From: an uncultured Fidelibacterota bacterium
GTDB lineage: Bacteria; Fidelibacterota; Marinisomatia; Marinisomatales; TCS55
Reading direction: 5' to 3'
Length of the DNA stretch: 33,428 bases
NCBI GenBank assembly: GCA_913009735.1
Contig: CAJVYU010000026.1
Coordinates: 1 to 33,428 of the forward strand
How positions within the stretch are numbered: position 1 is the first letter of the stretch; the number at the start of each line of letters is the position of its first letter. Below, piece by piece: positions 17,046 through 31,191 of the stretch. Position numbers and translations under genes: made by a program. The notes beneath the pieces were generated by a model. That model made no database searches. It had not been told where the DNA came from and was given only the letters and a program-made list of their open reading frames with translations.

Positions 17046-17139
17046 AATTTTAAACTCCTATATTAGTGAACTAAAATAGTGCATTTATGCTATATTGAAA
17101 ATAAACTATCCCCTGATTAGAAACCGTATGATTTTATAA

Positions 17140-17281
17140 GACCTTTGCATAATTTATAGTGTGAAGAAAAAGAATTAAAATTTGTCTGATTAAGACGGTC
17201 TACCCGACTTTGCCCGCCCGGCCATGCCGTTCGGACGGGCCATTCAGGCGGGTTTATGCAATAGGTTATGTAAAAAGGTTT
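17140..17281 (+). repeat. Foldback repeat family, copy A (GC-rich core)
   Basis: A dispersed non-coding element related to 30994-31149. The block 17159-17196, from GTGTGAAG to GATTAAGAC, matches copy B (31130-31092, reverse) at about 34 of 39 positions. The right-end word TGCAATAGGTT (17257-17267) is identical to copy B (31015-31005). Both begin near an ACC(C)TTT end. The core here is a GC-rich hairpin, GCCCGCCCG (17212-17220) with CGGACGGGC (17232-17240), instead of copy B's AT-rich arm. The element ends eight bases before the next gene. The remaining bases from 17046 show nothing clear. Confidence 0.75.
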
Positions 17282-17288
17282 CTTTGTA

Positions 17289-30972: not shown

Positions 30973-30993
30973 GGGGTTGAATTTAGTAATGGA

Positions 30994-31149
30994 ACCCTTT
31001 GATAAACCTATTGCACAAATTAAAAAGGGTAAAATTCACCTGCTTTTCGTTAAAAAACTTACCCATAGCTCCGCTATTGGCTACGTTTCTTGTCTTAATC
31101 AGGTAAATTTTAACTTTTTTTTCTTCACACATAAGGTTTATTAAAGGGT
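30994..31149 (-). repeat. Foldback repeat family, copy B (complete palindrome)
   Basis: Arms of about 50 bases, 30994-31042 and 31100-31149, are imperfect inverted repeats. The outermost 16 bases differ at one position (ACCCTTTGATAAACCT against AGGTTTATTAAAGGGT). The exact centre is a small hairpin, ATAGC (31065-31069) / GCTAT (31073-31077), so the whole unit folds back on itself. It has no coding frame. It fills most of the 243-base spacer between PBP1A and fumC. A homologous element lies at 17140-17281. This is the plan of a MITE-like or foldback element. Confidence 0.8.
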
Positions 31150-31191
31150 GCTAATAGATTAGAAAATGTATATTGAGGAATTGAACGGTGT

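Follow-up and report, generated by a model that had tools for sequence, protein, structure and literature searches.

Bacterial MITEs derived from insertion sequences, exemplified by QMITE2 of Coxiella and Chunjie of Geobacter, are AT-rich, intergenic elements of less than 500 bp that have terminal inverted repeats, fold into a stable stem-loop, and whose flanking duplications fade with age (PMC10969869). The element described herein shares each of these properties, and the IS1111 insertion in the QMITE2 palindrome (PMC10969869) finds a counterpart in an IS110 insertion in one of its copies. Two other groups are comparable in part. IS5-family insertion sequences (NF033581) agree in transposase type and in the type of their ends with elements that we identified in G206, a genome from another family of the phylum, and with a fragment in the congener G001, and REP, Correia and RUP-type repeats are likewise short, dispersed, palindromic and intergenic.

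The window, by which we mean the entire 33,428-nucleotide stretch of DNA analysed, which derives from an uncultured Marinimicrobia bacterium, contains a 160-bp repeat that we interpret, with a probability of approximately 0.92, as a MITE, a non-autonomous transposon, moved by an IS5-family DDE transposase. It lies between a fumarase C gene and a downstream penicillin-binding-protein (PBP) gene, approximately 20 bp ahead of the PBP start codon, contains no transposase gene, and has a G+C content of 33%, compared with 39% for the whole window. Its limits had been placed at 30994-31149; the palindrome itself stands, and its true extent is 2 bp greater on each side (Table 1). Strict mirror-register pairing gives 46 Watson-Crick pairs over 80 positions, relative to a mean of 22 (sd 3.9, maximum 35) in 2000 base shuffles, and compared with dinucleotide shuffles it folds stably both as RNA (-48.3 kcal/mol, z -6.7) and as DNA (z -4.5). 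The tip hairpin is off the exact centre by at most half a base, in line with the midpoint position originally noted. The claim that the arms are inverted copies over their full length was somewhat too strong, as pairing is uneven: it is near-complete in the outer 18 bp, which is the length of the terminal inverted repeats, and interrupted in the inner arms. Within these ends, helix 1 is paired in 92% of aligned cells.

Table 1. Coordinates of the two MITE copies in the window and of their component features.
Feature	Coordinates	Strand	Remarks
MITE copy, complete foldback (mirror-register) element	30992..31151	+	160 bp; terminal inverted repeat and target-site duplication analysis, and gapless 160-column family alignment
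Left terminal inverted repeat, GAACCCTTTGATAAACCT	30992..31009	+	1 mismatch in 17 relative to the right end of IS5-type element L142
Right terminal inverted repeat	31134..31151	-	Minus-strand reading is GCACCCTTTAATAAACCT
Target-site duplication, left copy, TAATG	30987..30991	.	
Target-site duplication, right copy, TAATA	31152..31156	.	4 of 5 positions equal to left copy; empty site in relatives
Centred tip hairpin, ATAGC-TCC-GCTAT	31065..31077	.	Folding; C-G/T-A double changes at the top pair in other copies
Second, diverged MITE copy, tip and inner right arm replaced	17138..17282	-	Flanks TTTAT/TTTGT, 4 of 5 positions equal
GC-rich palindrome nested in second MITE copy	17213..17252	.	

The homologue in opposite orientation that had been recognized at 17140-17281 is real, and its span is slightly wider than proposed (Table 1), with the GC-rich palindrome standing in place of the tip and inner right arm. 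Several genomes have MITE copies with similar GC-rich palindromic cassettes of approximately 34-45 bp, which occupy the same small number of internal positions (L074, 1501-1700; L075, 359-560; L076, 1579-1780; L129, 1358-1607; L243, 201-393), and in one orthologous pair the cassette is found in one copy, L243, and not in its partner, L022. An IS110-family (RNA-guided) element has inserted within a nested GC-rich palindrome of this kind, inside a MITE copy of G051 (L122, contig C108, 128-1900). Two further sites, L061 (contig C161, approximately 440-525) and L067 (contig C141, approximately 73-130), have in common a stretch, GTGAAGCAATTGTTTCCGCATATTGGC, that follows a MITE end and immediately precedes an open reading frame, a different one at each site; these are perhaps cassette-like recombination sites, and an attC-like reading of them is a guess.

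The original prediction reasoned that two copies in approximately 33 kb suggested a high-copy family, and many copies were indeed found in this genome and its relatives. Among 98 first-look candidates in the own-genome assembly (a 3.42 Mb draft in 258 contigs), approximately 40 were scored as MITE copies, and the catalogue that includes relatives comprises 118 copies, 60 of which are exactly 160 bp. Searching with a covariance model detected the family in no fewer than 16 of the 130 genomes searched in the order and in 8 of 38 genera, frequently with a length of exactly 160 bp; the per-genome copy counts are lower bounds, as at most 22 candidates were scored in each. The 160-bp length is mostly fixed across several families of the order. 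The hosts of related copies recovered by a pattern scan are Candidatus Neomarinimicrobiota MAGs. Within the own genome, 35 of 43 copies are intergenic. Three copies, with conserved flanks, are common to both species of the genus, and some insertions are therefore old. Plasmid, phage and viral-contig collections were searched for the MITE and yielded no copy, and our literature search brought up nothing on transposable elements in Marinimicrobia with a bearing on the family. Illumina adapter-like sequence is present at two own-genome contig ends (L067, contig C141, 1-42; L062, contig C185, approximately 1-150) and is an assembly artefact.

That these copies arose by insertion is indicated by their flanks and by an empty site, both of which the original prediction had proposed to look for. 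Exact 5-bp duplications flank 67 of the 118 copies, compared with a mean of 5.3 and a maximum of 13 for shuffled flanks, and no other duplication length is in excess; a first set had given 42 of 83. The duplication consensus centres on TAWWA. The fumarase C and PBP genes are collinear in G002, G009 and G016, where the element and one duplication are missing. These three genomes are from another genus, the search of the congener G001 for this locus having given only MITE copies, and the window insertion therefore occurred later than the split from the neighbouring genus. We also identified solo 20-bp palindromes, such as GAGGGTTTTGCAAAGCCCTC, at several sites, 5 of 10 of which have exact 5-bp duplications. 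They look like near-precise deletion scars: as TTTGCAAA is present at both MITE ends, a deletion between these repeats would leave a 20-bp scar. A similar outcome in other transposons is termed near-precise excision.

Our survey of DDE transposases for a candidate mover identified a single locus, L142 in the congener G001, in which an IS5-family gene (NF033581, 5e-67) is followed by a MITE end, GAGCCCTTTGATAAACC. This element is truncated, lacks its left end and adjoins an IS110 element. Its homologues in G206, L173 and L175, encode transposases 55-58% identical to that of G001 and are both complete, with lengths of 1258 and 1266 bp, ends GGAATCTTTGCAAAACA/GGAACCTTTGAATAACC and GAATTCTTTGCAAAACC/GAGTACTTTGAAAAACC, and perfect 5-bp duplications AATAA and TTATA. 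Both 17-bp ends of the G206 elements resemble those of the MITE, with 3-5 mismatches, the match thus being partial. The transposase with matching ends that the original prediction anticipated, as an unseen agent moving the repeat, therefore exists, albeit outside the own assembly and with one matching end in G001 and both in G206. Searches of the own genome, a draft MAG from whose assembly multicopy insertion sequences may be missing, gave no homologue of this IS5-family transposase, and those of the 130 genomes covered in the order gave no intact partner transposase, their yield being the truncated copy of the congener and a single weak homologue. For a MITE of the IS5 family, an autonomous partner within the same genome is usual but not required. 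The MITE and the insertion sequences have nothing obvious in common beyond approximately 20 bp of their ends, and the best available link between them is the same kind of ends together with the same duplication length. We infer that the mover is probably an IS5-family insertion sequence acting in trans. To our knowledge, 5 bp is not among the duplication lengths of the described IS5 subgroups, and the source elements may therefore represent an undescribed subgroup; our literature search found no paper that gives duplication lengths of IS5 subgroups.

Several other loci were considered as the autonomous partner and rejected. The IS110 element lying between two MITE ends on contig C108 of G051 proved to be an insertion, with an IS110-family transposase, into a MITE copy, the end pair on contig C143 of G037 encloses ordinary genes, and L143 has a different transposase and other ends. 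Contig C31 of the own genome has a MITE copy that an IS1634-family element has apparently interrupted (L160, 952-2660). Since the own genome has several DDE transposases, and one of IS1634 type adjoins a MITE copy, movement by IS1634 or another of these DDE elements was weighed; we consider it very improbable, because no other DDE locus is bounded on both sides by MITE-like ends in the fetched flanks, even when up to 4 mismatches are allowed, and the copy on C31 resembles a MITE that was itself interrupted by the IS1634-type element.

The reading as a non-autonomous, MITE-like element, which the original prediction favoured, is supported by the copies, 5-bp duplications, empty site and IS5-type ends, all of which are observed directly, as are autonomous elements with ends of the same type and an equal duplication length. 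Under this model, the MITE would carry only the ends needed for recognition, while an IS5-family DDE transposase would come from an autonomous element whose ends are of the same type (GAxxxCTTTG[CA][AT]AAACC). The transposase would bind both MITE ends and move the element, and its joining to AT-rich, mostly intergenic T-A-W-W-A targets would leave the 5-bp duplications. At the locus in the window, the insertion came between the fumarase C and downstream PBP genes. The active partner may since have been lost from the own genome, or may be unassembled in it.

We next consider the coupling between the arms. Of the 47 pairs compared over 23 own-genome copies, 17 have changed on both sides, and covariation is 0.189, versus 0.081 in shuffles; most of it is gone when the partners are slid by one column. 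A tree of 60 copies, reconstructed by parsimony on short sequences, exhibits 35 branch-wise double changes compared with approximately 6 for random pairing, of which 17 fall on inner branches (1.4 expected) and 18 on terminal branches (4.5 expected), the latter being lengthened beyond the time since insertion by unsampled copies. Helices inside the terminal repeats give about half of all doubles. Changes on terminal branches mostly break pairs, with 85 going from paired to unpaired, 29 to G-U and 14 being compensatory doubles. This strong coupling, the stable fold and the mostly intergenic position are what would be expected of the structured RNA family that had been offered as an alternative, for example a regulatory RNA, terminator or 3'-end stabiliser, with host selection acting on each copy. 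However, an Rfam search of the window matched only tRNAs, the target duplications and empty site denote insertion, and the breaking of pairs on terminal branches means that the shape is not preserved in inserted copies: the arms covary as a set, while pairing decays in single copies. We therefore do not favour a structured RNA, which is largely refuted by the empty site and has very little remaining probability. Collectively, the pattern points to arms that are maintained in the transposing lineage and decay after insertion, as opposed to a host-selected RNA.

Why the palindrome of the MITE persists can be explained in two ways. First, the foldback may be needed in transposition beyond the terminal repeats, for example if a cruciform or hairpin serves to pair the ends, such that the mobile lineage is selected for foldback. 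The whole 160-bp palindrome would then be an inherited working part, with arms kept complementary across several bacterial families and a foldback that aids transposition by an IS5 subgroup not yet described, whose targets are 5-bp TAWWA sites. The length fixed across several families of the order, the inner-branch doubles and the share of doubles in terminal-repeat helices argue for this view. However, IS5-type DDE transposases are not known to require internal palindromes, and perfect duplications surround copies with large nested insertions, although these inserts may postdate transposition; on balance we regard the proposal, in its general and its specific form, as unlikely. Second, the coupling could be a by-product of mutation, in which template switching during replication uses one arm to correct its partner (quasi-palindrome correction), a process documented for hairpins (PMC8794818). 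Same-branch doubles at neighbouring pairs are consistent with it, as there are 4 relative to 0.42 in shuffles, 2 of the 4 assuming that equal leaf counts identify inner branches as one and the same. Mismatches on terminal branches mostly remain uncorrected, however, and correction would therefore have to be slow or limited to the active lineage. We tentatively entertain this second explanation.

The family is thus new, with a likely IS5-type source, while being of a kind already known. Relative to the described bacterial IS-derived MITEs, it differs in its IS5-type ends and 5-bp duplications, in the mirror register of the whole element with a centred tip and a length mostly fixed at 160 bp, and in its absence from the plasmid, phage and viral collections searched. 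From IS5-family insertion sequences it is distinguished by having no transposase, such that only the ends are common to both. REP, Correia and RUP-type repeats have TA duplications or Y1 transposases, unlike the clean 5-bp duplications, 18-bp ends and IS5-type partner found here. A largely uncultured phylum therefore gains a well-delimited MITE family, whose boundaries, empty sites and likely source are unusually clear for an element of this well-known kind. From covariation alone, such elements would pass wrongly for structured RNAs, and their many copies of differing age form a natural data set for asking whether selection in the mobile lineage or template-switch correction keeps them palindromic.
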